Positions 3,766 to 20,961 of a stretch of 64,000 nucleotides of DNA are shown piece by piece. Source of the stretch: an uncultured Flavobacteriaceae bacterium. GTDB lineage: Bacteria > Bacteroidota > Bacteroidia > Flavobacteriales > Flavobacteriaceae. The stretch lies in assembly GCA_947497145.1 (NCBI GenBank), contig CANMFQ010000012.1, forward strand, positions 62,001 through 126,000, read 5' to 3'. The first letter of the stretch is position 1. Every line of letters starts with the position of its first letter. Position numbers and translations under genes: made by a program. The notes beneath the pieces were generated by a model. That model was not told the origin of the DNA, searched no databases, and was given only the letters and a program-made list of their open reading frames with translations.

Positions 3766-6700
3766 TCAATTAAATAAGTCCATTAATCCATCTAACTCAT
3801 CCTGGCTCATATCGACGTCTGGAAAATCTGATGGAGTAAAATTTTCAGTATTCCTTTGTAGACAAAAATTTATAAGTCCAACTAAATTAACTTCAAAACT
3901 AGCTGCTAAAGTTTGTATGGTTTCCGTATTAAATACATCAGTACTATAACTCCAATACATACACAATTGCTTATCTTTAATAAGGGAATTAATTTCTAAC
4001 CAATAATTTCTTTCACTCAATGGATGACGTGCCCCATCCCAAATAAAATTAAAATTTATTGGACTTTCAGTAGGGGAATTATTCCCTAAATAATTAAAAA
4101 TCACTTTAGGGTTTTGTCTGCTTACGAATTCCTCTTTATGAGATGTTAAATAATTTAAAACACCGTACCCTATACCACTATTAGGTACCGCTCTAAGTTG
4201 CTCTTTTACACCCTTTATCAGATTATCTAAACCTGTAAAATTATTGTTTACCATAAAAGGAAAAAATGAAGTAAACCAACCTATGGTACTTGTTACATCT
4301 GTATTTAACCACTGTGTATTACGTCCGTGGCGTTCTAATCCTAAGAACAGAGCAGTGCTTTCAGACCATTCACAAATTGTTTGTACTAAGGCTGCTAACA
4401 ATACGTCTTCAACGGTGGTATTGAAGCTGGTATGCACATCATTTATTAAATGATTGGTTTCTTTAATACCAAATCTTATTTCATGAAGTTTAACTGTGTT
4501 TTCTAGCACTATTTCTGGCCCTTTTTTGTCTGAAGGGATAGTATTTTTACCTGCTATATGTTTCATCCAAAAAGCCATCTCTGCTTCTAGCTGTGATGAT
4601 GAGGCGTAGTTCTTCAAAACGCTAGCCCATTGCGCTATGGTAGTTGTTTTGGGGCTAAATTTAACTTCTTTTTTTTGCATTAATTGTTGTATCCCTGCTC
4701 TAAAATCTTCAAAAATTGAATTCCACGACGCCGCATCAATAACCAAGTGGTGCGCTATTAAAAATACCTTACGTAGCTGAATGGCACCACAATTAAAAAT
4801 AATAGCTCTAAAAAGATTATCTTTTTCCAAATCACAAGTCATTTGGTGGGTTGTTAATTGCCTTTTAATAAAAATATCTTGTTCAATCGCTGTATTTAGG
4901 TGGCTTGCATCAATTTCAATACTAAGTGACGGCCCAAAATTCTCAGCTACTTCTGCAAACCAACTTCCATCAACACATTTAAAGCGCAACCTTAGAGCAT
5001 CATGGTAATCCACTATTTGCTCAAGTAACTGAGCTATAGTATTTGTAGCAACAGTTGCCACACCTGTAACTTCTATAATTTGATTCCAAAACGCTGGTGC
5101 TGTTTTGTGTACATCAAAAAACCAATGTTGTATAGGTGTTAATGCCACTTGCCCAACTACTTTAGCTAAACTAGAGCGAGTTATTTCTTGTACTTGATTT
5201 GTTAACATAGCCAAATCACCAATGGTTTGTTGCTCAAACAATTGATTAGGCTTTAAGAGCAATCCCATCTTTCTTGCCCTAGCCACAATCTGAATACTTA
5301 AAATGGAGTCTCCTCCTATTTCAAAAAAATTATCATTCCTGTAAATTACAGGAATCCCTAAGACAGCCTGCCAAATTTCTGCTAACTTTTGCTCTATTTC
5401 TGTTTGCGGTAATATTAAATTCTCTTGCTTTTCAACCAGCAAAGCTGCTTCATTAAACAGTTGATTTTTATCTATTTTTCCGTTTGGTAATTTTGGGATA
5501 CCTGAAACGCTATACACCTTCTTGGGCACCATATAATCTGGTACTATTTTGTTTAAATGCATTTTAATTGTGCAACTTTGTAACATTGTATTTGGCGTAA
5601 CTACAAAAGCTGAAAGTTGTTTGGCATCTAAATCATCTAAAGACTCAAAAATTACTGCTGTTTCTGTTACATCGTGGTGTTCTAAAATAGCCTGTTCTAT
5701 TTCGCTCAACTCAACACGGTATCCCCGTATTTTAATTTGATTGTCTGCCCGTCCTAAAAATTCTAAATCTCCTGTGTTATTATAACGGACTAAATCTCCT
5801 GTTTTATATAACTTTTGGGTAGTATTGAATGGGTTTTGAATAAAAGCTTGAGCTGTAAGTTCCGGTTGATTTATGTATCCTTTTGACACTCCTAAACCAC
5901 CAATATAAAGCTCTCCAATAGCACCAAAAGGCACTTCTTTAAGACTACTATTAAGCACATATACTACCGCACCAGCAACAGCTTTTCCGATAGGTATTTT
6001 TGACAAACTTTCTTGCCAATTAATTTTATGAGCAACACACCATACAGTAGCCTCTGTCGGTCCGTATTCATTATATAAATTGGTATTTGGCAATAGCTTA
6101 AAATGTGCTTTACAAACGTCAGGTAAACAAGCTTCTCCTGCAACAATTACAGTGGTTAGCGAACTTAAAAGTTCCTTTTTACAGTGCTTTAAAATTAAGT
6201 GATATAAAGACGGTAACATAAGGGTATGCGTAACCTTGTGTGCCGCAATAGTATTTGCCAATTGATTCATATCTTGCGCTAGTCGAGGTTCAGAAATAAC
6301 CAGATTGCCACCCGTAGCTAACGTCCAAAAAATTCCTGCTTTAGCGCTATCAAAAGCAATAGATGACAATAATAAAAACGACTTTGGTGATGTTTCATAA
6401 AATTGGTTACGCCCTTCTGTAGAATTTACAATATTTTGATGTGTTATTGCCACCCCTTTTGGTTTTCCAGAGCTGCCTGAAGTATATATGATATAAGCTA
6501 AACTTGATGCCTTTATTTCTGGCAACTTTTGTTTTACGCTACTCGTTACAATGGTAACGATAGTGTTAAAATAATCTCCTATTAACGGCATGGTTTCGGC
6601 GTTGGTCAACACTAGCAATGCCTGCGCATCTTGTACCATAAATTTTAGTCGCTCTTTAGGGTATGCAGGATCTAGCGGCAAATAAGCGCAACCTGCCTTT

Positions 6701-8364
6701 AAAATTCCCCATAAAGTAACAATCATGTCCACCGAGCGGTCAATACACAAACCAATTACCTTAGCTTCTCCCCCTGTTTTTTCTAAAATTTGATAAGCTA
6801 TGTTATTAGCCTGTTCATCTAATTGTTTGTATGTTATGCTTTTGCCTCTACATGTTATAGCAATAGCAGTAGCATTGGCCGCAATACTACTATTTAGTAG
6901 AGCTACGAGCGTGTTGTTTGTGTTTACCGAAACAGTTAATGGCACTCCTTTTGACTTAAAACTAGTTTGTAAAGGAATATCAGCTATTAGAATAGACGGA
7001 TTACTAACAATCGCTCTTAAAAGTAATAAAAACTGCTTTTGAAAACGGGCTATGGTTGCTTCTTTAAAAATTGAGGTTGCATATTCAAAAATAGTAGTGA
7101 GTTGACCCTTATCTTCTGCAACGTATAGGGTAAGTTTAAACTTAGCTGCTTTTGTATCTATTGTTTTTTGAGTACACCTTAAATCAGGCCCAAACGAAAC
7201 AGCATTAGGTGTTTTATGATACAAAAACATGACACTAAAAAACGGATTTTCATTTGCTACTCTACTGGGTTTAATTGCATTTACCACGGCATCAAAAGAC
7301 ACCTCTTTATTTTCAAATGCAGCTATTGTAGTAGTACGCACATTGGCAACAGCTTCTCTGAAAGACTGGCCCCCAGTAATCGTTGTTCGCAATACAACGG
7401 TATTATTAAAAAAACCAATTACATCTTCTAATTTTTTTTGATCTCTATTGGATATTGGTGTTCCTATTAAAATATCATTTTGATTACTATAGCGATACAA
7501 TAACAAATAATATACGGTTAACAAGAGTACATACGGCGTTGTTTTTAAGGTTAGCGCTAAATCTAAAATTTCAGTTGACAAATCCTTGGGTAATTGCTGT
7601 TTATTAAAAGCACCCTCGTACGTATTTGCAGTGGTAGGAATAGTGTCTTGCGGTAATGCTAAAACTGGGATTTCTCCTGACAATTTGGATTTCCAATAAG
7701 CTAACTGAGTTGTATTTATAGGCTCCTTAATTTGCCAAGCTGCATAATCTTGATATTGTACCTCTGGTTTCTGGACAACTAAAGTCTCTCCTTTAGTTAA
7801 GGTGGTGTAATATGTTGCTAATTGATCTCTAAAAACTCCCATAGACCACTTATCAGTAACCATATGATGAAAGACAAGAACCAATGAATGTGTTTCATTA
7901 CCTCTCTTAAATAATGTACATCTCACTACTGGACCTTTTTCAATAGTAAAAGGTTGTTTAGCTTCATCAAAAAACAAGCTTTTTGTAAAATTAGTATCGG
8001 CCACCTTTGGGTGATTACTAATGTCTTTAAACGTAACAGTAATTTTTACATCAGTATTTACCACGGCTTGCGGCACACCTGCTACGGTTGTAAAATTGGT
8101 TCTTAAAACGTCATGTGCCTCATAAATTAGCTGTAAAGATTTTGTCAGGTTATCCACATCTAAATCACCTGTAAAATCATACTGTTCTGCATAATTATAA
8201 AAAGGGTTTAAAGGTTGTAATTGTTGTAATAACCACAGACGCTTTTGTCCATGAGATAACGGAATAATAGTTCCTTCAACTAATTTTGGAATCCTATTAT
8301 AAACTGGGTTGTTTTTATTCTTACTCTTCCACTTACTAAGTAAAGAGTTCCTATTATCCGACAT
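3766..8364 (-). CDS. NRPS elongation module, C-A-T-E
   Basis: This 1532-residue synthetase has a condensation domain (about 30-460, HHMVTDKWS at 166-174), an adenylation domain (about 485-975), a carrier domain (about 985-1055, GGDS with Ser1020) and an epimerization domain (about 1072-1505). The E assignment rests on LTPIQHWFF, HHLVIDAASW at 1205-1214, LERHGRN near 1343, GWFTSFFP near 1362, GYGVLNYL near 1399 and IFNYLG near 1422. The A domain keeps YTSGSSGKPKG (627-637), NEYGPTEATV, YKTGD and LPNGKID. By motif alignment its ten-residue specificity code reads D-S-A-L-I-A-E-V-W-K (672, 673, 676, 720, 740, 742, 766, 774, 775, 963). I do not recognise this code, so the amino acid is unassigned. 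It lies 29 bases after the HupE-like gene and 1 base before the C-T-TE gene, and would add one residue and invert it to D. Confidence 0.95.
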   Translation of the reverse strand: MSDNRNSLLSKWKSKNKNNPVYNRIPKLVEGTIIPLSHGQKRLWLLQQLQPLNPFYNYAEQYDFTGDLDVDNLTKSLQLIYEAHDVLRTNFTTVAGVPQAVVNTDVKITVTFKDISNHPKVADTNFTKSLFFDEAKQPFTIEKGPVVRCTLFKRGNETHSLVLVFHHMVTDKWSMGVFRDQLATYYTTLTKGETLVVQKPEVQYQDYAAWQIKEPINTTQLAYWKSKLSGEIPVLALPQDTIPTTANTYEGAFNKQQLPKDLSTEILDLALTLKTTPYVLLLTVYYLLLYRYSNQNDILIGTPISNRDQKKLEDVIGFFNNTVVLRTTITGGQSFREAVANVRTTTIAAFENKEVSFDAVVNAIKPSRVANENPFFSVMFLYHKTPNAVSFGPDLRCTQKTIDTKAAKFKLTLYVAEDKGQLTTIFEYATSIFKEATIARFQKQFLLLLRAIVSNPSILIADIPLQTSFKSKGVPLTVSVNTNNTLVALLNSSIAANATAIAITCRGKSITYKQLDEQANNIAYQILEKTGGEAKVIGLCIDRSVDMIVTLWGILKAGCAYLPLDPAYPKERLKFMVQDAQALLVLTNAETMPLIGDYFNTIVTIVTSSVKQKLPEIKASSLAYIIYTSGSSGKPKGVAITHQNIVNSTEGRNQFYETSPKSFLLLSSIAFDSAKAGIFWTLATGGNLVISEPRLAQDMNQLANTIAAHKVTHTLMLPSLYHLILKHCKKELLSSLTTVIVAGEACLPDVCKAHFKLLPNTNLYNEYGPTEATVWCVAHKINWQESLSKIPIGKAVAGAVVYVLNSSLKEVPFGAIGELYIGGLGVSKGYINQPELTAQAFIQNPFNTTQKLYKTGDLVRYNNTGDLEFLGRADNQIKIRGYRVELSEIEQAILEHHDVTETAVIFESLDDLDAKQLSAFVVTPNTMLQSCTIKMHLNKIVPDYMVPKKVYSVSGIPKLPNGKIDKNQLFNEAALLVEKQENLILPQTEIEQKLAEIWQAVLGIPVIYRNDNFFEIGGDSILSIQIVARARKMGLLLKPNQLFEQQTIGDLAMLTNQVQEITRSSLAKVVGQVALTPIQHWFFDVHKTAPAFWNQIIEVTGVATVATNTIAQLLEQIVDYHDALRLRFKCVDGSWFAEVAENFGPSLSIEIDASHLNTAIEQDIFIKRQLTTHQMTCDLEKDNLFRAIIFNCGAIQLRKVFLIAHHLVIDAASWNSIFEDFRAGIQQLMQKKEVKFSPKTTTIAQWASVLKNYASSSQLEAEMAFWMKHIAGKNTIPSDKKGPEIVLENTVKLHEIRFGIKETNHLINDVHTSFNTTVEDVLLAALVQTICEWSESTALFLGLERHGRNTQWLNTDVTSTIGWFTSFFPFMVNNNFTGLDNLIKGVKEQLRAVPNSGIGYGVLNYLTSHKEEFVSRQNPKVIFNYLGNNSPTESPINFNFIWDGARHPLSERNYWLEINSLIKDKQLCMYWSYSTDVFNTETIQTLAASFEVNLVGLINFCLQRNTENFTPSDFPDVDMSQDELDGLMDLFN

Positions 8365-8393: not shown

Positions 8394-9683
8394 CTACTCT
8401 AAATAATCGGGTATTGGAGGCAAGACTCCAATCCAACGCAACAATTTACCCAGCCACATTCGTAAATTCTCATCCCATCTGATATCAATATCAAAAGCTC
8501 TTTCTACAAACCAATAAATTGAAATAAGGATAAGCAACAGGGAGCAATACACCAATAATTTAGGATATAACTTACGTTTACGCAGGAAAAATAAAACAGG
8601 AAAAATCATTAAAATAATAACCAATTGACCAATTTCTACGCCAACATTAAATCCTAATAAAGACAAGGTTAAATATTCTGATGTTAGTCCTAAATCTGCT
8701 AAAACACTAGCAAATCCAAACCCGTGAAACAATCCAAAAACAAAGGCGATTACCCAATCTTTACCTTTAAAAATAGGGCGAATATTATGATATGCTGCCA
8801 AACCAATAGACAAGGCTATAATGGCCTCTACCATACGTGATGGTAAATTAATAATTTGTAACGAAGCTAAACTTAAGGTTATGGTATGCGCCAAGGTGAA
8901 AAAAGTAATTACCTTGACAATGTATAACAAAGCTGGTTTAAAACGTGCCACTGGAAACCAATCCCAAGTAATAAAACCTGCATTCGCTTTAGGTGCTGTT
9001 CGAGTTCCTTTTTCTCCTTTGGTTGCAGTACTCCACCTGCGTACGACAGCAGGGAGTATTAGAGCAAACAAAAACAAAATATGATCTAGACCAATCCAAA
9101 TATGCCAAATACCTTGCTTAACCATGGCTACAAAGCCTTTCCAGACAGATACGTCTGTGAGTGACAATACATCTGTGGTTTGGTTCTTTGAAAATCGTAA
9201 GGATATGTTTGCTTCGTTATTAATTACACCTGCTCTCCAATTATATTCCATCATTAAAAAACCAGCATGCGTATTATCCCTATCAAAAATTACACTATAA
9301 CTTACATTTAAATTATCAGGAAGCTCAACCGTGTTTTCTAACACAAATTTTACTTTCAAAAAAGATCCTAATCCTACATCCGCTTTAGTCGTTTCTAAAA
9401 ATGTAATATCATGCACCCCATTGGTAGAACTAAATTTAGCGTGTTCTAACAAATACGCCTGTAACTTTTTTATATAGGGTTGCATATCTTCAAAAGAGGC
9501 TTTCTTGTCTAAATTACTGCCGTAAATTTTATTAATATCAAGTGCCGTAATCTCAAACCTACCTTCTATATTTTGCCCCTCATAAATTCTAAGATAAATA
9601 TAGCTTTGGTTGGGTGCATGCGCTAATGCTGTTGACGGAAAAACGAATAATAAAAAAACAACTATGCGTACAAAACTGGACAT
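8394..9683 (-). CDS. HupE/UreJ-family membrane protein
   Basis: This 429-residue protein has a cleavable signal peptide ending in ALA, so the mature protein starts with His. A periplasmic domain of about 180 residues follows, then a C-terminal bundle of about six or seven hydrophobic helices. The helix with WHIWIGLDHILFLFAL carries the HxxxGxDH pattern of HupE/UreJ proteins, and GFGFASVLADLGL lies further on. HupE and UreJ are linked to nickel uptake next to hydrogenase or urease genes, but no such genes are nearby. Bacteroidota carry many relatives of this longer two-part form whose substrate is unknown. It is the first gene of the minus-strand biosynthetic block, 29 bases ahead of the C-A-T-E NRPS. 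A role in moving a metal or a metal complex is inferred from family and context only. Confidence 0.85.
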   Translation of the reverse strand: MSSFVRIVVFLLFVFPSTALAHAPNQSYIYLRIYEGQNIEGRFEITALDINKIYGSNLDKKASFEDMQPYIKKLQAYLLEHAKFSSTNGVHDITFLETTKADVGLGSFLKVKFVLENTVELPDNLNVSYSVIFDRDNTHAGFLMMEYNWRAGVINNEANISLRFSKNQTTDVLSLTDVSVWKGFVAMVKQGIWHIWIGLDHILFLFALILPAVVRRWSTATKGEKGTRTAPKANAGFITWDWFPVARFKPALLYIVKVITFFTLAHTITLSLASLQIINLPSRMVEAIIALSIGLAAYHNIRPIFKGKDWVIAFVFGLFHGFGFASVLADLGLTSEYLTLSLLGFNVGVEIGQLVIILMIFPVLFFLRKRKLYPKLLVYCSLLLILISIYWFVERAFDIDIRWDENLRMWLGKLLRWIGVLPPIPDYLE

Positions 9684-9842
9684 TACTATTTGGTTTTAAA
9701 TTTTTGAGACAAAAACAGTTTATCTCACTTTTTGGTGGGTATTAAGATATCACTTTTAAATTTAAACTTCACAATTTCAATATACTATGAAAAAAATATG
9801 TACTTTTTAACTTTCAATATTTTTTTTAATAAAAAATTACAT
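9684..9842. promoter_or_regulatory. Divergent intergenic region of the NRPS locus
   Basis: This stretch of about 160 bases separates the two divergent biosynthetic blocks and must hold the start signals for both. It is strongly AT-rich. I could not find a clean TTTG-N19-TAnnTTTG promoter on either strand, nor a clear palindromic operator. An upstream in-frame extension of the cyclodeaminase gene crosses this region, but its translation is low-complexity and looks non-coding. Confidence 0.5.
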
Positions 9843-10913
9843 ATGAATACTCTTAAAAACAAAACTATTGTTTTAACAAAAAAACACGTAAATCATATCT
9901 TAGAAAATATTGGGTTAGATGATATAATGGATCAACTAATTGAACATATAGAAGCCGCCTTCATAGCTTTTAACCCTGAGCTAACTAGCATACCAATACG
10001 ATCTGGCTTTAATTACGCCAATGAAAACCCTGGATTAATAGAATTAATGCCACTCTATCAAAAAAATAAAGCGGTAACCTTAAAAGTAGTAGGATACCAC
10101 CCTAAAAACCCATCAAAATATAATTTACCCACAATTCTATCTACAATATCTAACTACGACACCCAAACAGGGCACTTAAAAGGATTAGTAGATGGTGTGT
10201 TACTAACAGCTTTAAGAACAGGTGCTACATCGGCTCTTGCCAGTAAATATTTGGCGCATCCAGCTAGTGAAACACTGGGTTTAATAGGATGCGGTGCACA
10301 AGCAGTAACCCAATTACATGGCATATCAAGACTTTTTAACTTAAAAAAAGTGCTGTTGTATGATACCGATTATACGGCTATTAAATCTTTTAAAGAACGT
10401 TGTGAGATACTCAATTTACCGATTTTATTTAAAAGTGCATCCCTATCAGAAATTGTAGCAACTAGCGATATCATATGCACGGCAACATCTATAAATATTG
10501 GCGAAGGCCCGCTTTTTAATAACATGACCAACAAACCTCACACTCATATTAATGCCGTTGGTGCCGATTTTCCTGGAAAAACAGAGATTCCAATTGCTCT
10601 ATTAAGAAAGAGCTTAGTAGTGCCTGATTTTTTAGAGCAGGCGGTAATTGAAGGGGAATGCCAACAATTAAATTCAACCGAAATTGGCCCTACATTGGCA
10701 ACAATAATAAAAAATAGTGACAACTACCAGCATGCTAAAGTACAATCAACGGTCTTTGATTCTACTGGCTGGGCCTTAGAAGATCAGGTAGCTATGGATT
10801 TATTCATGACACATGCTGCTCATTTAAATATTGGCCTTAAATTAGACATTGAAAACACCGCCAAAGACACCAAAAACCCCTATCATTATTTAGTAGAAAC
10901 GGTTGAAATTTAA
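9843..10913 (+). CDS. Ornithine cyclodeaminase/mu-crystallin family protein
   Basis: The family uses NAD(P)H-type chemistry. Ornithine cyclodeaminase turns L-ornithine into L-proline plus ammonia with NAD recycling, while relatives make or reduce other imino acids. From the ATG at 9843 the protein has 356 residues, close to family length. Visible marks are LRTGATSALASKYLA near the substrate pocket, the dinucleotide loop GLIGCGAQA, the NAVGADFPGKTE segment carrying the catalytic Asp, and FDSTGWALEDQVA near the C-terminus. An upstream in-frame start at 9732 would add 37 low-complexity residues and is less likely. It opens the plus-strand operon of proline-type starter genes, so supplying proline for the next enzymes is the simplest role. 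A SbnB-like role in making diaminopropionate is less likely because no SbnA-like partner is present. Confidence 0.82.
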   Translation: MNTLKNKTIVLTKKHVNHILENIGLDDIMDQLIEHIEAAFIAFNPELTSIPIRSGFNYANENPGLIELMPLYQKNKAVTLKVVGYHPKNPSKYNLPTILSTISNYDTQTGHLKGLVDGVLLTALRTGATSALASKYLAHPASETLGLIGCGAQAVTQLHGISRLFNLKKVLLYDTDYTAIKSFKERCEILNLPILFKSASLSEIVATSDIICTATSINIGEGPLFNNMTNKPHTHINAVGADFPGKTEIPIALLRKSLVVPDFLEQAVIEGECQQLNSTEIGPTLATIIKNSDNYQHAKVQSTVFDSTGWALEDQVAMDLFMTHAAHLNIGLKLDIENTAKDTKNPYHYLVETVEI

Positions 10914-10949: not shown

Positions 10950-12101
10950 ATGGACTTTTCATGGAGTACAACACAACTAGCCTACAAAGCTAAAATCATT
11001 TCATTTGCAGAAGCTAACTTTTCAGAATCATTTATAAAAGAAGACCAAGAAGCTACTTTTACCAGAGCAAACTGGGAAAAATGTGCCGCTTTTGGACTTT
11101 TAGGTTTATCCACAACCACCGCATATGGAGGAGCCACTGACAAGGTAGATATTTTAACCTCCACAATAGCTATGGAAGGTCTGGGGTATGCTTGTAAGGA
11201 TAACGGGTTACCCTTTGCCTTAAATGCACAAATGTGGACGGTACAATATCCTATTTTAGAGTTTGGAAGCGAAGCGCAAAAGAAAAAATATTTACCAAAA
11301 ATGTGTAGCGGAGAATGGATTGGTTGCCATGGGCTAACAGAACCAAATGCAGGATCTGACGTGTTTAGCATGGAAATGACCGCCACAAAAGTAAACGGAG
11401 GCTACCTTTTAAATGGCACAAAACAACATATTACCATGGCACCCGTTGCTGATGTCTTTTTAATATTTGCTAAAACAAATCCAAAATTGGGTGCTTGGGG
11501 AATTTCAGTATTTATAGTAGATAAGAATACAAAAGGCCTAACTATAGGTAAAAACAGACCCAAAATGGGCCTTAGAACGGTGCCTTTTGGGAACCTTACT
11601 TTTAAAGATTGCTTTATTGCAGATACCAACAGATTAGGAAAAGAAGGTGCTGGCTGGGCCATTACAAACAGTTCATTAGAATATGATCGTTGTACTATTT
11701 TGGCAGGGCAATTGGGAGCCATGGAAAAGCAATTAGAAGACACTATTGCCTTTGTTAAAAACAGAAAACAATATAACAAACCCATAAGCCAATTTCAAGC
11801 CATTTCACATAGAGTTGCTGATATGAGATTGCGCTTAGAAACATCTAGGTTGTTGCTACAAAAAGTAGCATGGCTAAAAAGTGAAGGCAAACCAGCAACG
11901 TTAGAGTCGGCAATGCTAAAACTACAGCTTAGCGAGAGCTTTGTTGCCTCTAGTTTAGATGCTATACGTTGTAATGGTGGCCGTGGCTACATCACAGAAC
12001 ACGGAGTAGAAAGAGACCTTAGAGATGCCGTAGGTAGTATTATCTATGCGGGAACATCAGATATTCAAAAAAATATTATTGCTAAATTATTAGGGTTATA
12101 A
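10950..12101 (+). CDS. Acyl-CoA dehydrogenase family flavoprotein, probable carrier-bound prolyl oxidase
   Basis: This 383-residue protein has the full acyl-CoA dehydrogenase fold: an N-terminal helical domain, LTEPNAGSD in the flavin-binding middle domain, NGTKQHI, and a C-terminal helical domain with NRKQYNKPISQFQA and GGRGYITEHGVERDLRD. In pyrrole-forming pathways such as pyoluteorin (PltE) and prodiginine (RedW), family members oxidise L-prolyl-S-PCP to pyrrole-2-carboxyl-S-PCP. That role is suggested here by the carrier and ligase genes directly downstream. The catalytic Glu of the common YEGTS site is Ala here (YAGTS), as expected for members that use a base on another helix. The alternative base position, just before Arg in EYDRCTILAG, is Asp rather than Glu. 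It lies 36 bases after the cyclodeaminase and 1 base before the ligase. The family is sure; the exact substrate is inferred. Confidence 0.85.
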   Translation: MDFSWSTTQLAYKAKIISFAEANFSESFIKEDQEATFTRANWEKCAAFGLLGLSTTTAYGGATDKVDILTSTIAMEGLGYACKDNGLPFALNAQMWTVQYPILEFGSEAQKKKYLPKMCSGEWIGCHGLTEPNAGSDVFSMEMTATKVNGGYLLNGTKQHITMAPVADVFLIFAKTNPKLGAWGISVFIVDKNTKGLTIGKNRPKMGLRTVPFGNLTFKDCFIADTNRLGKEGAGWAITNSSLEYDRCTILAGQLGAMEKQLEDTIAFVKNRKQYNKPISQFQAISHRVADMRLRLETSRLLLQKVAWLKSEGKPATLESAMLKLQLSESFVASSLDAIRCNGGRGYITEHGVERDLRDAVGSIIYAGTSDIQKNIIAKLLGL

Positions 12102-12102
12102 C

Positions 12103-13644
12103 ATGCCAAATACACTAGTACAATCACTACATAATGCTACTAAAAATACACCAGAAAACAGCGCCTTTACCTTTGGTAAAGAAACACTTACCTACACCCA
12201 ATTAGCAACTAAAACAGATCAATTAGCAGCGCACCTTGTTGCCAGTGGGCTAAGAAAAGGAGATCGCGTGGGTGTTTATATGTTTCGTTGTTTAGAAACA
12301 GCAATAGCAATTTATGGTGTACTAAAAGCAGGGTGTACCTATGTACCCTTAGACCCGTCGTTGCCCATGCAACGCATAGCATACCTATTAAATAATTGTG
12401 GTATACACCATTTGGTTTCTCACCCAAACCTGCGCAAAAAGCTGTTAAAAATAGTAGAGCTAAAAACTCCTTTAACTTCAATAATTGGGCTATCAGACAT
12501 TGACAGTATTGCAACCTTTTCTTGGGATATCATATATAGCAAAGACAACAATTTTAAACCAATATCAATACTAGAAAATGACGTTGCTTATATTATGTTT
12601 ACCTCTGGCTCCACAGGCCACCCAAAAGGTATAGTACATACCCATGCTAGCGGTTTAAGTTATGCCAAGTTAGCCGTAAAAACATTTAACATAACACCCA
12701 AAGACCGTATTGCCAACCATGCACCTTTGCATTTTGATATTTCAACTTTAGGATATCTTGCTGCTCCTTTAGCCTGTGCCACAACGGTAATTATTTCTGA
12801 TGCACATACCAAGTTACCAGCCAGTTTGGCGACTTTAATTAACGACGAAAAAATATCGATTTGGTATTCTGTACCCCTCGCATTAATTCAGTTACTACAA
12901 TCTAATGCTTTAAAAAATAAAAATTTAAATAGCTTACGATTAGTGCTCTTTGGAGGTGAAATATTTACTAATAAGTATTTAGCCCAGTTTATGACCTTAT
13001 ACCCAAAAGCAAAATACTATAATGTTTATGGCCCTGCAGAAGTAAACCAATGCACTTGCTATGAAATTAAATGTCCACCAACACTTGATGAAATCATTCC
13101 TATTGGAACGGTTTGGGATGAAACCCAATATAAAATTTTGGACAAAAAAGACAACATCGGAGAACTAGCCATACACAGCAGCACCATGATGCGTGAATAT
13201 TGGAAAAATCTAACCTTAACCAAAGCTTCCTTTTATTTAGATACCACTAGCAATCCGCCTAAAAAATTTTATAAAACTGGTGATGTAGTTAAACTAAATG
13301 AAGATGGAAATTTACTATTTCTAGGGCGGAATGATAGGCAACTAAAAATAAGAGGCTATAGAATAGAACTTGATGAAATTGAAGCTACACTCCTAACACA
13401 CAAAGACATACTAGAAGCCGCAGTGGTTAGCTTATCAATATCAGATAGTACTCAAGAAATTTTAGCAGCCATTTTAACACCCCATGATAATTCCCTCACA
13501 GCTAAAGAAATTCAAAAATATTGTGGTCTAAGCATGCCCAAATATGCTATTCCTAACAAGGTTGTTTTTATGGATGATTTACCAAGAACAGGCTCAGGAA
13601 AAATTAATAGAAAAGCTATTGCGCAAACCTATAAAACATACTAA
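12103..13644 (+). CDS. Free-standing adenylation enzyme, probable prolyl-AMP/PCP ligase
   Basis: This 513-residue member of the ANL family has a complete A domain and no attached carrier. It shows AGCTYVPLDPSLP near 76, YIMFTSGSTGHPKG at 163-176, the pocket segment FDISTLGYL from 211, YNVYGPAEVNQCT at 306-318, FYKTGD, FLGRNDRQLKIRGYRIEL, and the lysine of GSGKINRK near the end. The GPAEVNQCT stretch is like the GPxETNxCT segment I associate with prolyl-AMP ligases of pyrrole pathways. The aligned pocket residues (D212, I213, L216, L282, G284, V308, Q316, C317, Lys) share several positions with the PltF-type code. It would activate L-proline and load the carrier encoded 2 bases downstream. Proline preference is inference from context and partial code. 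Confidence 0.87.
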   Translation: MPNTLVQSLHNATKNTPENSAFTFGKETLTYTQLATKTDQLAAHLVASGLRKGDRVGVYMFRCLETAIAIYGVLKAGCTYVPLDPSLPMQRIAYLLNNCGIHHLVSHPNLRKKLLKIVELKTPLTSIIGLSDIDSIATFSWDIIYSKDNNFKPISILENDVAYIMFTSGSTGHPKGIVHTHASGLSYAKLAVKTFNITPKDRIANHAPLHFDISTLGYLAAPLACATTVIISDAHTKLPASLATLINDEKISIWYSVPLALIQLLQSNALKNKNLNSLRLVLFGGEIFTNKYLAQFMTLYPKAKYYNVYGPAEVNQCTCYEIKCPPTLDEIIPIGTVWDETQYKILDKKDNIGELAIHSSTMMREYWKNLTLTKASFYLDTTSNPPKKFYKTGDVVKLNEDGNLLFLGRNDRQLKIRGYRIELDEIEATLLTHKDILEAAVVSLSISDSTQEILAAILTPHDNSLTAKEIQKYCGLSMPKYAIPNKVVFMDDLPRTGSGKINRKAIAQTYKTY

Positions 13645-13646
13645 AA

Positions 13647-13877
13647 ATGGAAGCAGTACTCCTAAATTATATTACCCAACTAACACATGAACAGTTAGAT
13701 ACCCCATTAACGGTTGATGATGACTTACTAGGAAGTGGCATTTTAGACTCCATAGGGATGATGAAGTTGGTAAGCTTTATAGAAACAGAACTAAGCATGG
13801 TGATACCGCCTGAAGATATACTTATTGAAAATTTCATGACCGTTAAACATATTATAACGTATCTAAAAACAACATAA
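13647..13877 (+). CDS. Discrete peptidyl/acyl carrier protein
   Basis: This 76-residue protein is an isolated phosphopantetheine carrier. The motif GILDSIGMMKLV places the modified serine at residue 35, followed by the usual four-helix pattern with TELSMVIPPEDI and a C-terminal helix ending in YLKTT. It sits between the free-standing ligase and the large NRPS, with gaps of 2 bases on each side, so all three are surely cotranscribed. By analogy with PltL and RedO it would hold proline while the flavoprotein oxidises it to pyrrole, then offer the acyl group to the N-terminal C domain of the next NRPS. The carrier call is firm; the bound substrate is inferred. Confidence 0.9.
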   Translation: MEAVLLNYITQLTHEQLDTPLTVDDDLLGSGILDSIGMMKLVSFIETELSMVIPPEDILIENFMTVKHIITYLKTT

Positions 13878-13879
13878 AT

Positions 13880-16800
13880 TTGGCAAAAGAACCACAACAT
13901 AAAACTCTAACATCAAGCCAACTATCCATTTGGACAGGGCAACAAATGCACCCTAAGTCTCCAATGTATAATATGGCACATACCTTTACTTTGCCCATTT
14001 CAATAAACGTAAAAGTGTTTACCGCTGCCTTTAATGCCGTACTTAATAACGCTGATGTATTGCGCACAGTATTCTTAGAAAAAAACCATATACCATATCA
14101 AATTACAACCCAAAATTGGAACTACCCCATTGCTGTAGTTGATGTGTCTGACAAAAATACAGCAGAAATTGAGGCATGGATTAGCAACCGCACCCAACGT
14201 ATTTTTAACTTAAAAGAGTGTCTTTTTGATACTGTATTACTTAAATATAACCCTACAAATTATAGCTGGTTTTTAAACATTCACCACCTAATTACAGATG
14301 CATCTAGCTCTCCCATTTTATACAAAAACACCCTATCTCATTATTTCAATTTACTAAAAAAACCAGCGGCAGAGGTAAAGTCACTACCCCTTTATGAAGA
14401 TTATATTGCATTTGAAAGCAACTTTAAAACATTAGACGAAGCCCAACCTGCCATTGCGTTCTGGAAGAACAAAGCTATTGAATTACAAGGCATTCCAAAA
14501 TTATACGGAGCAACAAATATTTCGCAAAAAACAGCTAGCAAACGAGTAAAAATCAAATTAAACGCCACAAAATATGAGCAATTAAAAGCAATAGCTCAAA
14601 ACCCGCTAATTAGATCGTTTTCTCCCAATTTAACCATGTTCACCATATTTGCTACACTTTTACACACATTTATATACAGGGTAAGTGGCCAAAAAAAAAT
14701 AGCACTTGGAGCCCCAACAGCAAATAGGCTTACTCCAACTTTTAAAAACACACCTGGTCTATTTATTGAACTTTTTCCGGTAGCGGTTTTACTAACTGAT
14801 GACGATACATTTTTATCCGTTTTAAATAGGGTAAAAACAGAATCTATTAACTATTTAAGAAATGGTTTACCTGGCTTATCTAACGCAAAATTAGGAAATA
14901 GTTATAACGTTATTTTAAACTACATTACCGCAAATTTTGAGCCCCTAAATAATTTCACAACTAACGCTCAATGGATACATTCTGGCCATTGTGATCCAAA
15001 TCACCACATTCGCTGCCATATATATGATTTTAATGCTAGTGGTAAACTAGAACTCTATTTTGATATAAACACTCATGTTTTTACCGCAGAACAAGTAGCC
15101 AACATTCCCAATCATTTTTTAAAATTGTTTAATGCTTTCATAAACGATGTAAATACACCAATAGCTAAACCTAGCATTTTAAGCCCAACAGAAATTAACG
15201 CTTTAACCATAAACCCTATAAAAGTTGATACCGCTATTTCTGTAATAGAGCAATTTCATACACAGGTAAACAACAACCCTACTACAATTGCTTTACGGTA
15301 TAAGCATGAAACCTATACCTACGCTCAGGTCAACGAAAAAGCAGCAAATTATGCTGTAGTCTTAAACGAAAAAGGACTAGATTTTAATGCCGTAATAGGT
15401 GTTCATTTAATACGTTCTCCAGAGTATATTTTCAGTGTTCTCGCTATTTTAAAATTGGGTGCTACTTTTATTCCTTTAGCATCAGATCAACCTAAAGACC
15501 GTATTGCTCATATTGTAAAAAACGCCAACTGTATGGCTGTTATTTCCAGTGAAGCTTTAGCTAAAGATAAAATTGAAGTATCAAAAACAATCCTTGTAGA
15601 AACCTTAAATTTAGCAGATAAAGCTACGTCCTTTTCCACTCCCGCTACTTTTAACAATACGCAAGCCTATATTATGTACACCTCTGGTAGCACAGGTAAA
15701 CCAAAAGGTGTTTCTATTTCTAATACCGCATTATCCAATTATATTAATTGGGCTAAAAAAGCATACAAACATCAGGAAAAATACATATTTCCATTAGTAA
15801 CTTCTATTAGTTTTGACCTAACCATAACAGCTACATTTTTACCACTAATAACAGGAGGAGAAATTGTAATCTACCCAGAAGACACAAGTGGTCCAGATAT
15901 TTCAATAGTACAAGTCATTGAAGATAACCTTGTAAATAGTATTAAGCTGACACCTTCTCACCTTGCTTTACTTACTAATAACACTGTTAATCAAAGTAAT
16001 TTAAAACTAATGATTGTTGGCGGCGAAAACTTTAAAACCAGCCTTGCAAATACCGCACAAAAAACCTTTGGCAACCATGTTAAAATAATAAACGAATATG
16101 GCCCAACCGAGGCTACCGTAGGTTGTATTGTTAGCACATTTAACGCAGATTTACACAAATTAAATGCTATACCTATAGGAAAACCTATTGCTAATATGCA
16201 GGCTTATGTTTTAGATTCTTATTTAAACTTGGTACCCAAAGGGGTTATTGGCGAGCTCTATTTAAGCGGAAAAAGCTTGGCGTCAGAGTATATAAGTCAG
16301 CCAGCCCTCACGGCAACATATTTTGTAAAGAACCCTTTTAAGCAGGGGGATAAAATGTACAAAACTGGTGATTTGGCTCGTTGGAACACAACTGGTGAAT
16401 TAGAATATTTAGGCCGAACAGATGAGCAGATCAAACTTAATGGTTTCCGAATAGAATTAGCAGAAATAGAAAATAATATTAGCAGTTATCCCAAAATTAA
16501 AAAAGCCGCTGTAGTAGTAAATTCTAAAGAACCAATAAAAAACATTGTGAATTGTGCAGAATGTGGCTTGCCGTCCTCCTACCCCAATGTAGATTTCAAT
16601 GAATACAACGTATGTCATTTATGCACATCGTTTAAGGGATACAAAGAAAAGACCGCTAAATATTTTAAAACAGAAACGCAATTACAAGAATTGCTGACAT
16701 CTCACAAAAAAAGGGATTTAAAATACGATTGCTTAGCCTTACTCAGTGGCGGAAAAGACAGCACCTACGTTTTGGCTAGGTTGGTAAATATGGGCTTAAA

Positions 16801-17989
16801 AGTACTGGCCTTTACACTTGATAACGGCTATATTTCAAACCAAGCAAAAGAAAACATTACTAAAATTACCCAAAAACTGAATGTAGACCACATATACGGT
16901 CAAACGCCGCACATGAACAAAATATTTGTAGACAGTTTACACCGCCATAAAAATGTGTGCAACGGATGCTTTAAAACAATTTATACCTTAAGTACTCAAG
17001 TAGCCTTAGCCCATGGCATTCCTTTTATTGTTACTGGGCTTTCACGTGGTCAGTTTTTTGAAACGCGTTTAACAGAAGAACTCTTTTGGGATGAAACTGC
17101 TGATACCACAAGTATTGATGCCACAATATTAGAGGCACGTAAATTGTATCACCAAGAAGAAGATGCGGTAAAAAAACATTTAGACACCAGTATGTTTAAT
17201 GATCCGAATACTTTTAATAAGGTACAATATGTAGATTTTTATAGGTATAGTGATGTTAGTTTACATGAAATATTAAACTACTTAAAACAAAACGTAAATT
17301 GGGTACGCCCTACAGATACTGGTAGGTCTACTAATTGCTTAATTAACCAAGCTGGAATTCATGTTCACAAGCAAGAACGCGGGTATAGCAATTATTCTTT
17401 TCCCTATAGTTGGGATGTTCGCTTAGGCCATAAAAACCGAGACGAAGCCTTAGAAGAAATAAATGAACATATAGATATTGAAGAAGTAGGCAAAATACTT
17501 AATGAAATTGGGTACACTAAAATAGATACAAAACAACAACAATTGGTAGGGTATTTTACGGCAACAGACATTATTTCATCTGCCGATTTACGCAGATATT
17601 TACAAAAAAAACTACCAGAATACATGATTCCCGCTGGTTTTAAGCAACTTCCTCAATTACCACTTACCCCAAATGGTAAAACAGACAAAAATGCACTGCT
17701 AAGCAATAGTATTAATTTTGATGTAGCCACTGCCTTTGTTCCCCCTAGCAATGAAATTGAAGAACTAGTTGCCAATATTTGGAAAGAAGTTTTACAACTA
17801 AATATAATTGGGATTCATGATAATTTTACAGCGTTAGGCGGGCATTCACTGGCAGCAATACGTGTAACAGCTCGTATTAATGATGAGTTGCAAACTAGTT
17901 TTACATTAGGCAAAGTTTTTGAATTGCCTACTGTTTATAAATATGCTTTATATTTAGAGCAACAATTAACCAATATGTTAGGCGAATAA
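13880..17989 (+). CDS. NRPS, C-A-T with a PP-loop ATPase inserted in the A domain
   Basis: This 1369-residue synthetase starts at a TTG 2 bases after the carrier gene. No in-frame ATG fits, and the C-domain motif begins by residue 12. Domains: condensation (10-430, HHLITDA at 135-141); adenylation N-part (about 455-882: YTSGSTGKPKG 600-610, NEYGPTEATVG 738-748, YKTGD 827-831, LGRTDEQIKLNGFRIEL 844-860); an inserted PP-loop domain (about 884-1218); the A-domain tail (about 1220-1275, LPEYMIP and TPNGK); and a carrier (about 1285-1365, LGGHS with Ser1323). The specificity code reads D-L-T-S-I-G-E-V-G-K (646, 647, 650, 693, 712, 714, 739, 747, 748, 1267), close to the known asparagine code DLTKLGEVGK. 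The C domain would join the carrier-bound starter to this residue. The insert falls where methyltransferase inserts usually interrupt A domains. The chemistry of the insert is unknown. Confidence 0.95.
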   Translation: MAKEPQHKTLTSSQLSIWTGQQMHPKSPMYNMAHTFTLPISINVKVFTAAFNAVLNNADVLRTVFLEKNHIPYQITTQNWNYPIAVVDVSDKNTAEIEAWISNRTQRIFNLKECLFDTVLLKYNPTNYSWFLNIHHLITDASSSPILYKNTLSHYFNLLKKPAAEVKSLPLYEDYIAFESNFKTLDEAQPAIAFWKNKAIELQGIPKLYGATNISQKTASKRVKIKLNATKYEQLKAIAQNPLIRSFSPNLTMFTIFATLLHTFIYRVSGQKKIALGAPTANRLTPTFKNTPGLFIELFPVAVLLTDDDTFLSVLNRVKTESINYLRNGLPGLSNAKLGNSYNVILNYITANFEPLNNFTTNAQWIHSGHCDPNHHIRCHIYDFNASGKLELYFDINTHVFTAEQVANIPNHFLKLFNAFINDVNTPIAKPSILSPTEINALTINPIKVDTAISVIEQFHTQVNNNPTTIALRYKHETYTYAQVNEKAANYAVVLNEKGLDFNAVIGVHLIRSPEYIFSVLAILKLGATFIPLASDQPKDRIAHIVKNANCMAVISSEALAKDKIEVSKTILVETLNLADKATSFSTPATFNNTQAYIMYTSGSTGKPKGVSISNTALSNYINWAKKAYKHQEKYIFPLVTSISFDLTITATFLPLITGGEIVIYPEDTSGPDISIVQVIEDNLVNSIKLTPSHLALLTNNTVNQSNLKLMIVGGENFKTSLANTAQKTFGNHVKIINEYGPTEATVGCIVSTFNADLHKLNAIPIGKPIANMQAYVLDSYLNLVPKGVIGELYLSGKSLASEYISQPALTATYFVKNPFKQGDKMYKTGDLARWNTTGELEYLGRTDEQIKLNGFRIELAEIENNISSYPKIKKAAVVVNSKEPIKNIVNCAECGLPSSYPNVDFNEYNVCHLCTSFKGYKEKTAKYFKTETQLQELLTSHKKRDLKYDCLALLSGGKDSTYVLARLVNMGLKVLAFTLDNGYISNQAKENITKITQKLNVDHIYGQTPHMNKIFVDSLHRHKNVCNGCFKTIYTLSTQVALAHGIPFIVTGLSRGQFFETRLTEELFWDETADTTSIDATILEARKLYHQEEDAVKKHLDTSMFNDPNTFNKVQYVDFYRYSDVSLHEILNYLKQNVNWVRPTDTGRSTNCLINQAGIHVHKQERGYSNYSFPYSWDVRLGHKNRDEALEEINEHIDIEEVGKILNEIGYTKIDTKQQQLVGYFTATDIISSADLRRYLQKKLPEYMIPAGFKQLPQLPLTPNGKTDKNALLSNSINFDVATAFVPPSNEIEELVANIWKEVLQLNIIGIHDNFTALGGHSLAAIRVTARINDELQTSFTLGKVFELPTVYKYALYLEQQLTNMLGE
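16529..17533 (+). other. PP-loop (adenine nucleotide alpha hydrolase) domain embedded in the NRPS
   Basis: This is residues about 884-1218 of the surrounding NRPS, in frame and without stops. It opens with a four-cysteine ribbon (C892, C895, C912, C915) of the kind seen in N-acetyl sugar amidotransferases and in TtuA/NcsA. The ATP-binding SGGKDS at 956-961 follows. Next come CNGC (C1027, C1030), followed by FKTIYTLSTQVAL and IPFIVTGLSRG, and a lone cysteine in STNCLINQ (C1153). CxxC plus a distal Cys is the pattern that holds an iron-sulfur cluster in TtuA/TtcA-type thiolases. The A domain resumes exactly where expected with QLVGYFTA, so the insert occupies the hairpin between cores A8 and A9. 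Possible reactions are thionation, amidation, amidine or nitrile formation on the carrier-bound residue. No glutaminase partner gene is seen nearby. Confidence 0.9.
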
Positions 17990-17998
17990 GTAGTAGTT

Positions 17999-18439
17999 AT
18001 GAGCAAAAAAAGGTATCAAAAAACACAAATCCCTATTGCCAGCTATTTAGCAATTGGCATTGTTTTTTGTTGCCTTTTAAAACCTGTTCAAAACCCTATA
18101 AAAAACCTATTACATAACGTAGCATACTTACTAGAATCACCAAATGCTATTATTGACCACAATACTAAAAATACAATTCCTAAAGCGCACACCCATTTTA
18201 AAATGCAATTACCTAAAAGTCATGAGGTAATTGATATAATTGATCATTTATTTGGAGCTAAAAACAATATTCCAGTTAAACATGATTTAAAAAAAACCGT
18301 CTTAGACAAACATTTTATATGCCAAAAAACAGCATATAAAGGTTTATTTTTGTGGCAACCGCAGAACATATTAAAACAGCTTTGTCCGAAAATAAAAAAC
18401 GGATTTCCTAATTTATTTAAAGAACCACCCAGGCTCTAA
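17999..18439 (+). CDS. Small membrane-anchored protein of unknown function
   Basis: I do not recognise this 146-residue protein. It has a basic N-terminus, one hydrophobic segment at about 13-30 (SYLAIGIVFCCLL), and a soluble remainder rich in Lys and His (for example KAHTHFK, HEVIDIIDHLFG, KHDLKK, LDKHFIC). The ATG lies 9 bases after the stop of the large NRPS, so it is almost certainly in the same transcript. The TonB receptor gene follows after 287 bases. Its scattered His and Cys residues would suit a metal-related or receptor-linked accessory role, but that is speculation. Confidence 0.7.
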   Translation: MSKKRYQKTQIPIASYLAIGIVFCCLLKPVQNPIKNLLHNVAYLLESPNAIIDHNTKNTIPKAHTHFKMQLPKSHEVIDIIDHLFGAKNNIPVKHDLKKTVLDKHFICQKTAYKGLFLWQPQNILKQLCPKIKNGFPNLFKEPPRL

Positions 18440-18726: not shown

Positions 18727-20961
18727 ATGAAAAAGTATATTATAATCTGCTGTACTTTTCTTTGCTCTTTCACGGCAGTACAAGCTCATGAATTAAGCGG
18801 CACAGTAACATCAGAAAACAACAAGCCTATTGAAGGCGTTGGCGTTTATAACAAAACTACAGGTGCCTATACCTATACCAATGTTTCTGGCTATTTTGAA
18901 ATTGATGACATTGCCATTGGTCACGAAGTATATTTTTACAGCCTAGGGTATAAAACCCAAATTTTAACTATTAAAGAAGAGCAATTAAACACTACTTTAA
19001 AAATAGTTTTAGTAGCGTCTGCGGTTTCTTTAGATCAAGTGGTACTAGTTTCCAAGGTAAACGCGCTAAGTAATTTTGTAAATGTTGATGTAAAAACAAA
19101 TCCTGTTCAATCATCTCAAGAAATTTTGCGCAAAGTACCCGGTTTAATAATTGGGCAACATGCCGGAGGTGGTAAAGCAGAACAGATATTTTTACGGGGT
19201 TTTGATATCGACCACGGTACAGATATTGCCATTAATGTAGATGGTTTACCTGTTAACATGGTTTCACACGCCCATGGTCAAGGCTATGCCGACATGCATT
19301 TTATAATTCCAGAAACCATTGATAATATAGATTTTGGAAAAGGAGCCTATTACGCTAACCAAGGTAATTTTAACACGGCAGGATACGTAAATTTACACAC
19401 CAAAAAGACTATCTCAAAAAATTCAATTGCTATGGAGGCAGGTATGTTTAACACCCTGCGCTCTGTTGGCTTGCTAAAACTAGCTGAAAACGATTTTAGT
19501 AATGCTTATGTGGCTACTGAATTGGTGCTTACAGACGGTGCTTTTGACTCCCCTCAAGATTTTAATCGCATTAATATTATGGGGAGATACAATTACAATA
19601 ACCATGAAAATCAAGATTTAAGTGTTACGCTATCTCATTTTCAGAGCAATTGGAATGCTTCTGGGCAAATACCACAACGTGCTGTAGAGCAAGGCATCAT
19701 TGGTCGATTTGGTGCTATTGATGATACCGAGGGTGGTAACACTAGCCGATCTAATATTTTAGTCAATTACACCCGTGAATTAGATGAACATTCGCGAGTA
19801 CGATCGAAAGCATTTGTGTCTATGTATGACTTTGAGTTGTTTTCTAATTTCACCTATTTTTTAGAAGACCCCTTAAATGGTGACCAAATACACCAACAAG
19901 AAGAACGTACAATAATTGGGGCAGAAAGTGTTTATGAGCATACTGCACATATAGACAATCATGACACTCAATTAAAATATGAAGCTGGCTTTGGTTTTAG
20001 ATATGATGATGTTAATAATGTGCAACTTTCTCATACCAAAAACCGTCAAGAATTAGTAGAGCGATTAGCCCATGGTAATATTGATGAAACCAATACCTAT
20101 ACTTTTTTTAATTTAACCTACAAAAAAAATGATTGGACTATTAACCCAGGTCTGCGTTTAGATTATTTTAAGTTTGATTATCAAAACTTACTTACCCCTA
20201 CATACGATTTTAAAAGTCAAGATAAATTATTTTTAGGTCCAAAACTAAATGTGATTTACGCAGCAACCACAAACTTGCAATTGTTTGCCAAATCGGGAAT
20301 TGGTTTTCACTCTAATGATACTCGGGTTGTAATTGCTAATGATGCAGATGCCATTTTACCCGCCGCATACTCGGCAGATTTGGGAGCAATATTTAAAGCT
20401 AGTAACAAACTGGTTTTGAATGCAGCGCTTTGGAATCTTTTTCTTGAACAAGAATTTGTATATGTTGGTGACGCTGGCGTTGTAGAACCAAGTGGTAAAA
20501 CACGTAGATATGGTGTAGATTTTGGCATGCGCTACCAACTTACTGATTGGCTTTATTTTAACGGAGATATTAATTATACCTACGCCAGAAGCACAGAAGA
20601 TTCAAATGGGCAAAACTACATTCCGTTAGCACCAGACCTTACATCGGCTGGAGGGCTATCGTTTAGAGAGATTAAGCACTTTTCTGGTAGTTTAAACTAT
20701 AAATTTGTTAAAAATAGACCAGCAAACGAAGACAATTCTATTATTGCAGAAGGCTATTTTGTATCCGATTTAAATTTAAATTACACTTTAAAAAACTGGG
20801 CTTTTGGTGTCATTATTGAAAACCTATTTGACACTCAATGGAATGAAACACAATTTGCAACCGAAAGTAGACTATTTAACGAGCCAGCTGGTATTGAAGA
20901 AATCCATTTTACACCTGGCACTCCTTTTTATTTGAGAGGAAAAGTAACCGTTAAATTTTAA
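18727..20961 (+). CDS. TonB-dependent outer-membrane receptor
   Basis: This 744-residue protein has a signal peptide ending in VQA, a CarboxypepD_reg-like beta-sandwich (about 22-95), a plug domain (about 115-230) with SSQEILRKVPGLIIG and FLRGFDIDHGTD, and a 22-strand-type barrel that ends in the terminal aromatic signature GKVTVKF. The plug has a His-containing stretch, NMVSHAHGQGYADMHF, that recurs in a branch of Bacteroidota receptors. Receptors of this class import metal chelates, cofactors or other large solutes with energy from TonB. It is the last plus-strand gene of the biosynthetic locus, 287 bases after the small unknown gene. Uptake of the metal-loaded product of this locus is the obvious proposal. 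The receptor class is certain; the ligand is not. Confidence 0.93.
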   Translation: MKKYIIICCTFLCSFTAVQAHELSGTVTSENNKPIEGVGVYNKTTGAYTYTNVSGYFEIDDIAIGHEVYFYSLGYKTQILTIKEEQLNTTLKIVLVASAVSLDQVVLVSKVNALSNFVNVDVKTNPVQSSQEILRKVPGLIIGQHAGGGKAEQIFLRGFDIDHGTDIAINVDGLPVNMVSHAHGQGYADMHFIIPETIDNIDFGKGAYYANQGNFNTAGYVNLHTKKTISKNSIAMEAGMFNTLRSVGLLKLAENDFSNAYVATELVLTDGAFDSPQDFNRINIMGRYNYNNHENQDLSVTLSHFQSNWNASGQIPQRAVEQGIIGRFGAIDDTEGGNTSRSNILVNYTRELDEHSRVRSKAFVSMYDFELFSNFTYFLEDPLNGDQIHQQEERTIIGAESVYEHTAHIDNHDTQLKYEAGFGFRYDDVNNVQLSHTKNRQELVERLAHGNIDETNTYTFFNLTYKKNDWTINPGLRLDYFKFDYQNLLTPTYDFKSQDKLFLGPKLNVIYAATTNLQLFAKSGIGFHSNDTRVVIANDADAILPAAYSADLGAIFKASNKLVLNAALWNLFLEQEFVYVGDAGVVEPSGKTRRYGVDFGMRYQLTDWLYFNGDINYTYARSTEDSNGQNYIPLAPDLTSAGGLSFREIKHFSGSLNYKFVKNRPANEDNSIIAEGYFVSDLNLNYTLKNWAFGVIIENLFDTQWNETQFATESRLFNEPAGIEEIHFTPGTPFYLRGKVTVKF

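Follow-up and report, generated by a model that had tools for sequence, protein, structure and literature searches.

A PP-loop ATPase domain embedded in the adenylation domain of a flavobacterial nonribosomal peptide synthetase

In the methyltransferase-interrupted adenylation (A) domains of nonribosomal peptide synthetases (NRPSs), such as TioS and 5WMM, a tailoring domain lies between cores a8 and a9, and a census of interrupted A domains by Lundy et al. 2020 reportedly covers methyltransferase inserts only. We describe an A domain interrupted at the same site by a PP-loop domain, whereas the inserted enzyme of those examples is an S-adenosylmethionine methyltransferase. The domain is encoded in a stretch of 64,000 nucleotides, hereafter the window, from an uncultured Flavobacteriaceae bacterium (GenBank assembly GCA_947497145.1, contig CANMFQ010000012.1, positions 62,001 to 126,000 of the forward strand). 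Passages of PMC11355689 list M, Ox, KR and MOx as domain types that interrupt A domains or are candidates for doing so.

The closest described enzymes are the N-acetyl sugar amidotransferases (NASATs), WbpG/WbuX and LpNASAT (8WEX); the part of PMC10607449 on 8WEX describes a zinc tetracysteine and a PP-loop. The insert resembles NASATs in its zinc tetracysteine pattern, PP-loop, overall fold and near full-length match to TIGR03573, but differs in being embedded in an A domain, in scoring below the TIGR03573 cut-off, in carrying a cysteine triad (C144/C147/C270) and in lacking the HisH/HisF partner set, which is usual for NASATs though not seen for every one sampled here. It shares its fold with the PP-loop enzymes TtuA, NcsA, YcfA and LarE, which act on tRNA, nucleotide or cofactor, unlike the substrate proposed for the insert. 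For the closthioamide enzyme CtaC, the relevant passages of PMC6772006 give a PP-loop at D77/S78 and a triad at C154/C157/C284, report no turnover of substrates off the carrier and loss of activity without the iron–sulfur (Fe-S) cluster, call thioamides in nonribosomal peptides "exceedingly rare" and present CtaC as the first nonribosomal peptide thioamide synthetase. The insert and CtaC have in common the PP-loop superfamily, a similarly spaced triad and a thiotemplated peptide setting; going by the same passages, CtaC is a separate protein of an NRPS-independent pathway in an anaerobe, whereas the insert lies inside an A domain, and the two were matched by published positions only.

A 2026 survey of the QueC family places in subcluster 1 of its cluster 5, grouped with WbpG, large multi-domain proteins of 900-2603 aa, predominantly from Flavobacteria (PMC13329287, in part). 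These are very probably the insert-bearing NRPSs described here; the survey's main text makes no mention of NRPS, adenylation or AMP-binding. The main text of a paper on metallophore genome mining (PMC12971057) gave no match to the terms looked for, and the relevant portion of PMC13185837 concerns YcaO/TfuA thioamides. We recognised no described NRPS with a PP-loop insert in open-licence literature, in agreement with an earlier sequence-only reading of this DNA by a model, which knew of no characterised NRPS of this kind. As far as seen, the PP-loop insert is a variant of interrupted A domains that is visible in the family survey and otherwise apparently undescribed.

The gene at 13880..17989 (+ strand) is a single unbroken frame of 1369 aa with the domain order C-A(PP-loop insert)-A_C-PCP (C, condensation; A_C, AMP-binding_C; PCP, peptidyl carrier protein). 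Its Pfam domains and core motifs, in NRPS residues, are:

Residues 6-442: Condensation (Pfam)
Residues 459-804: AMP-binding (Pfam)
Residue 600: core A3
Residue 845: core A8
Residues 892 and 912: cysteine pairs of the insert
Residues 951-1025: QueC, PP-loop (Pfam)
Residue 956: SGGKDS
Residue 1027: CNGC
Residue 1150: STNC
Residues 1216-1267: AMP-binding_C (Pfam)
Residue 1245: core A9, LPEYMIP
Residue 1265: core A10, NGKTDK
Residues 1296-1357: PP-binding (Pfam)
Residue 1319: PCP motif LGGHSL, with the carrier serine

The A cores are intact on either side of the insert, A3-A8 ahead and A9-A10 behind, as in other interrupted A domains. Pfam and core mapping thus confirm the complete PP-loop domain within an A domain, in one frame, that the sequence-only reading had claimed; its coordinates were right, but it had overlooked A9. 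Because A9 is also found C-terminal to the insert, the domain is interrupted after A8 and before A9, at the classical site. When a structure model of the A domain, insert and PCP was used in a fold search, ordinary NRPS modules came top and the methylase-interrupted A domain 5WMM ranked eighth.

The insert and its motifs are listed below, with conservation counted over a reference set of 29 distinct Bacteroidota NRPS proteins that includes the window and some near-copies (L049, L055), two duplicate proteins having been removed:

16529..17533, + strand: PP-loop (NASAT/WbuX-type) domain inserted between A8 and A9, about residues 884-1218 (TIGR03573, structure model, Foldseek)
16553..16624, + strand: two CxxC pairs (CAEC, CHLC) at NASAT zinc-site positions, cysteines 29/29
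16745..16762, + strand: PP-loop SGGKDS, insert residues 73-78, 29/29
16958..16969, + strand: CNGC, insert C144 and C147, first and second cysteines of a candidate Fe-S triad, 29/29
17327..17338, + strand: STNC, insert C270, third cysteine of the candidate triad, 29/29

By its sequence, the insert is a member of the NASAT/WbuX lineage of PP-loop ATPases, and both hallmarks of that family, the CxxC-Xn-CxxC zinc-site pattern and the PP-loop, are present. TIGR03573 (WbuX, N-acetyl sugar amidotransferase; NCBIfam) matches at 124-129 bits (129 for the window's insert) over model positions 4-335 of 344, under its curated cut-off of 203.2. The best Pfam match, QueC PF06508, spans 75/210 profile positions in the nucleotide part only. 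The closest solved relative by sequence is 8WEX (E 2.5e-4), aligned only over insert residues 20-83. A structure model of the insert from 29 sequences (pLDDT, the predicted local distance difference score, 84.3; pTM, the predicted template-modelling score, 0.85) also had 8WEX as its first Foldseek match (E 2.7e-11, TM 0.57-0.60 by query). Later matches include AsnB and, at 12-18% identity in the fold alignments, TtuA, YcfA, LarE and NcsA, and three of the matched enzymes (TtuA, NcsA and mmLarE) are Fe-S-bound by entry title. The kinship with PP-loop enzymes that had been read from the letters is therefore with NASATs (WbuX/WbpG) by sequence and with TtuA, YcfA, AsnB, LarE and NcsA by fold. Judged by published CtaC positions, the PP-loop and three cysteines follow in the same order as in CtaC and at similar spacing, with 66 residues from the PP-loop serine to the first triad cysteine (76 in CtaC) and 123 from the second to the third (127 in CtaC); that the insert's D77/S78 bear the same numbers as in CtaC is due to where we chose to start its numbering.

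The insert was found at 67% identity or above in 14/148 related genomes (own genome counted), in open frames of 1374-1417 aa; these comprised 9 of the 14 genomes listed for the same genus, with the other 5 from elsewhere in the family. Draws of 395 genomes each at order and phylum level, which overlap, sample part of each group and both contain the own genome, had the insert in 4/395 and 2/395 genomes at E 1e-40 and added four carriers. A pattern scan of contigs reduced 36 pattern matches to 17 loci, including Kriegella, Arenibacter, Maribacter, Pricia, Robiginitalea and a Saprospiraceae metagenome-assembled genome. Together with the window, the search for further insert-bearing A domains yielded the 29 reference proteins, and the architecture tally stands at these, four later ones and a Roseovarius plasmid; the L026 and L043 proteins are identical. 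Neither the PP-loop residues nor any of the seven cysteines change across 29/29, and the same holds for NEYGPTE of the A domain and the PCP serine. Identity to the window ranged over 59-80% for the insert (median 73) and 36-56% for the preceding A domain (median 51), the insert being the higher in 28/28 relatives compared. Recurrence in 14/148 genomes with motifs kept in 29/29 proteins rules out chance or assembly error.

ATP-dependent replacement of the oxygen of a tethered amide is quite likely, while sulfur as the replacing atom is possible at a little less than an even chance. Taken whole, the proposal of an active NASAT-lineage PP-loop ATPase, carrying out on-line tailoring in an Asn-selecting module to give a thioamide in a metallophore, is put forward tentatively, at just short of even confidence. 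The A domain would load Asn, or a close analogue, onto the downstream PCP, and the C domain would acylate PCP-bound Asn from a stand-alone PCP. The insert would then act in cis, adenylating an amide oxygen of the PCP-bound intermediate and replacing it; the likeliest nucleophile would be sulfide on a [4Fe-4S] cluster held by C144, C147 and C270, yielding a thioamide as in CtaC. The window's insert-bearing A domain has the code D-L-T-S-I-G-E-V-G-K (read by alignment), which occurs in 21/30 insert-bearing A domains, the other 9 having one or two changes, and appears Asn-like by comparison with what we take to be the Asn code, DLTKLGEVGK. The suggestion in the sequence-only reading of a built-in tailoring domain acting on the tethered residue survives as an inference; of the products it offered (thioamide, amidine, amide or nitrile), the thioamide is somewhat favoured.

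Relatives outside the Bacteroidota show the insert in other settings. A Roseovarius pelagicus plasmid (L061) encodes an NRPS with the order C-A(insert)-PCP-C-A-PCP-TE (TE, thioesterase), whose insert is 52% identical and which adjoins HupE and a starter set that includes an additional methyltransferase; the 37 kb examined gave no TonB receptor match. A Pseudohalocynthiibacter plasmid has an insert match of 53%, with the same genes adjoining, at the record end, where no gene is annotated. The cluster at L062 (NZ_CP049039.1) is on a plasmid typed conjugative by PLSDB and adjoins a polysaccharide cluster that has a NASAT, a cyclase subunit and a HisH of its own. In Streptomyces sp. NBC_01216, a free-standing copy (40.5% identity) is fused to a condensation-like region and follows an A-PCP protein; the Streptomyces plasmid cluster (L063:16190-22882) also encodes an amino acid racemase, alongside asnB, A-PCP and the PP-loop-condensation fusion. 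The 10 NRPS-type copies that entered an unrooted tree of 51 rows grouped together (support 100/100). With weaker support (89/84), this group was placed beside glutaminase-fused NASATs and two triad-bearing proteins, L107 and L108; the remaining five proteins with the triad fell in other parts of the tree. Those glutaminase-like fusions (L065:646-2610, L103, L104, L105, L106; 609-680 aa) join a glutaminase-like N-terminus, scored against glutaminase-domain models in one and by BLAST to its N-terminus in four, to a triad-free NASAT domain, and so have a built-in ammonia supply.

The triad is missing in 34/41 sampled non-NRPS relatives (L082 and L094, which keep part of the cysteine pattern, counted as triad-free). 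An ammonia-donor partner was seen for 2/7 triad-bearing and 29/34 triad-free proteins (Fisher p 0.0055), a rough figure since the 41 distinct proteins, from 37 of 64 listed places plus four plasmid proteins with three duplicate rows dropped, are not independent. Since partners were assigned by BLAST comparison with HisH and HisF of the own genome, HisA-like genes may count as HisF. Flanks were mostly about 1.5 kb, and about 4-9 kb for the five triad loci without a partner; a partner is therefore less well excluded for the five unfused triad-free proteins that showed none. In favour of sulfur stand this rough tally, the CtaC-like order of PP-loop and cysteines, the need of CtaC itself for an Fe-S cluster and a carrier-bound substrate, and the lack of a second HisH/HisF set in the own genome. 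The NASATs L080 and L085 have CWHC, a third cysteine and an altered PP-loop, SFGKDS, and no HisH/HisF was found in the 16-17 kb examined around them.

Several points weigh against the thioamide and metallophore proposal. By sequence, the nearest family consists of amidotransferases rather than thiolases, and the superposition on 8WEX is loose (root-mean-square deviation 9-11 A at the TM value above). The pTM of the combined model, only 0.51, leaves the geometry of A domain, insert and PCP not established. The Asn and His assignments from the substrate codes are tentative, and CtaC was compared by published residue positions rather than by sequence. Two glycan-type NASATs, L064 and L083, have CWHC and a third cysteine beside HisH and HisF, so the triad is not sulfur-specific and its use as a clean mark of sulfur chemistry is weakened. 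The asnB gene directly upstream of the Streptomyces A-PCP protein encodes a glutamine-using enzyme, and the scanned cluster genes included none recognisable as a sulfur relay. The HupE protein of the cluster has HX5DH plus only FHGFGFA, which falls short of what we take to be the second nickel motif. Finally, most CtaC homologues are in anaerobes, unlike the insert hosts, according to the passages on their distribution (PMC6772006).

The strongest rival, unlikely though it is, keeps the NASAT reaction: ammonia or the Asn side-chain nitrogen would attack the adenylated backbone amide to give an amidine, and an internal Asn donor would close a six-membered ring, giving a cyclic amidine (dihydropyrimidinone). 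Such an internal donor would account for the lack of an encoded glutaminase partner: there is no HisH/HisF ammonia supply among the window's cluster genes, and in the own genome the above-cut-off matches, one HisH and two PF00977 (HisA/HisF), all lie within about 3 kb of one contig, which argues against a second set, though weaker sub-cutoff matches exist. The amidine would also suit the family assignment by sequence and fold, the near constancy of the Asn-like code (21/30 identical) while the starter set varies, the triad-bearing NASATs beside HisH/HisF (L064, L083) and the asnB near the Streptomyces relative. Against it, 29/31 sampled NASATs with an ammonia-donor partner are triad-free, we know of no characterised PP-loop precedent for intramolecular amidine formation, and none was found in open-licence literature.

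A QueC-like dehydration of the Asn side-chain amide to a nitrile, the second step of QueC itself being such a dehydration, is improbable: PF06508 is the best Pfam match and the substrate would be an amide side chain, but that match covers 75/210 profile positions, against nearly the whole insert for WbuX. An on-line asparagine-type amide synthetase, in which the insert amidates Asp that the A domain has loaded, is slightly more improbable again despite AsnB among the fold neighbours, as Glu at position 322 presumably fits Asn over Asp and no ammonia partner was found in the cluster. Least probable is a purely structural or docking insert that has lost catalysis, for although its activity is a prediction from sequence, its PP-loop and seven cysteines are invariant in 29/29 and it exceeds the A domain in conservation in 28/28.

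The module sits in a widespread probable metallophore cluster, a point absent from the sequence-only reading. The neighbouring genes in the window are:

625..1377, - strand: 4'-phosphopantetheinyl transferase (PF01648)
1365..3764, - strand: NRPS C-PCP-TE without its own A domain (domain scan)
3766..8364, - strand: NRPS C-A-PCP-E, code D-S-A-S-I-A-E-V-W (His-like), tenth position not read (domain scan, alignment)
8394..9683, - strand: HupE/UreJ_2 membrane protein with HX5DH and FHG motifs, present in 28/29 loci, window counted
9732..10913, + strand: ornithine cyclodeaminase-family protein (PF02423), co-occurring with the dehydrogenase
10950..12101, + strand: acyl-CoA dehydrogenase-like protein, PigA/RedW type (PigA 395 bits, cut-off 500; L-prolyl-PCP dehydrogenase 350 bits, cut-off 650)
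12103..13644, + strand: stand-alone A domain of the starter unit, probably for Pro (profile matches, code)
13647..13877, + strand: stand-alone PCP, presumed donor to the C domain (PF00550), 28/29 loci, window counted
17999..18439, + strand: small protein of 146 aa without Pfam or NCBIfam match, with a relative in 21 of the other 28 loci
18727..20961, + strand: TonB-dependent outer-membrane receptor (PF00593/PF07715), 28/29 loci, window counted

HupE/UreJ_2, the free PCP and the TonB receptor share their sole missing locus, a 5.1-kb contig. The starter genes vary across the 29 loci: cyclodeaminase, dehydrogenase and A domain occur together in 10 (counting L028, whose cyclodeaminase is a 96-aa piece), the A domain alone in 5 and none in 13, with one undetermined. 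Given this variation, the constant parts of the cluster are the insert module, the receptor and HupE. Among later regions, L110 and L111 fit the pattern; in L109 the starter set is joined by a distant receptor (30% identity), with no HupE match within the 19.9 kb examined. In 13/29 loci the free PCP has no adjoining starter A match (L026, L032-L035, L042, L044, L046, L047, L049-L051, L055), and the two of these scanned for other genes, L026 and L035, have a glycosyltransferase in the cluster. The L026 counterpart of the A-less protein ends in C-A-PCP-TE, and the window's HupE/UreJ_2 protein carries about 185 N-terminal aa without a Pfam match ahead of its membrane domain. A look for signs of metal regulation gave nothing: the intergenic stretches upstream of HupE showed no shared perfect palindrome, and neither the window nor 7 loci had an Rfam match.

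An outer-membrane receptor and a candidate metal transporter accompany the synthetase, as in metallophore clusters; the receptor scores 85 bits against a siderophore-receptor model, under its cut-off. The second A domain reads DSA[ST][IM]AEVW in 23/23 recovered and appears His-like beside what is presumably the His code, DSELTAEVCK. With HupE/UreJ-type and TonB receptor neighbours and an Asn-like followed by a His-like code, the product is on balance probably a metallophore. Matches of the dehydrogenase to the PigA and prolyl-PCP dehydrogenase models, both sub-cutoff, suggest that it probably oxidises prolyl-PCP to a pyrrole-2-carboxyl starter. The product may be modelled as pyrrolyl-Asn*-D-His-X, with X left unassigned because the last module has no A domain. 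The acyl-(modified Asn)-His peptide would probably be secreted as a metallophore; uptake would be by the neighbouring TonB receptor, and HupE would carry the metal over the inner membrane.

These features may mark a class of bifunctional, two-ATP A domains, a suggestion we hold no more firmly than the sulfur assignment, in which Asn selection and an embedded Fe-S PP-loop site together give a thioamide (or cyclic amidine), within a metallophore family common to flavobacteria and Roseobacter plasmids and with a free-standing version in Streptomyces. If true, peptide engineering would gain a portable amide editor in an insert borne by an A domain, genome mining would gain a handle, and the cluster would define an uncharacterised route of metal uptake in marine Bacteroidota.

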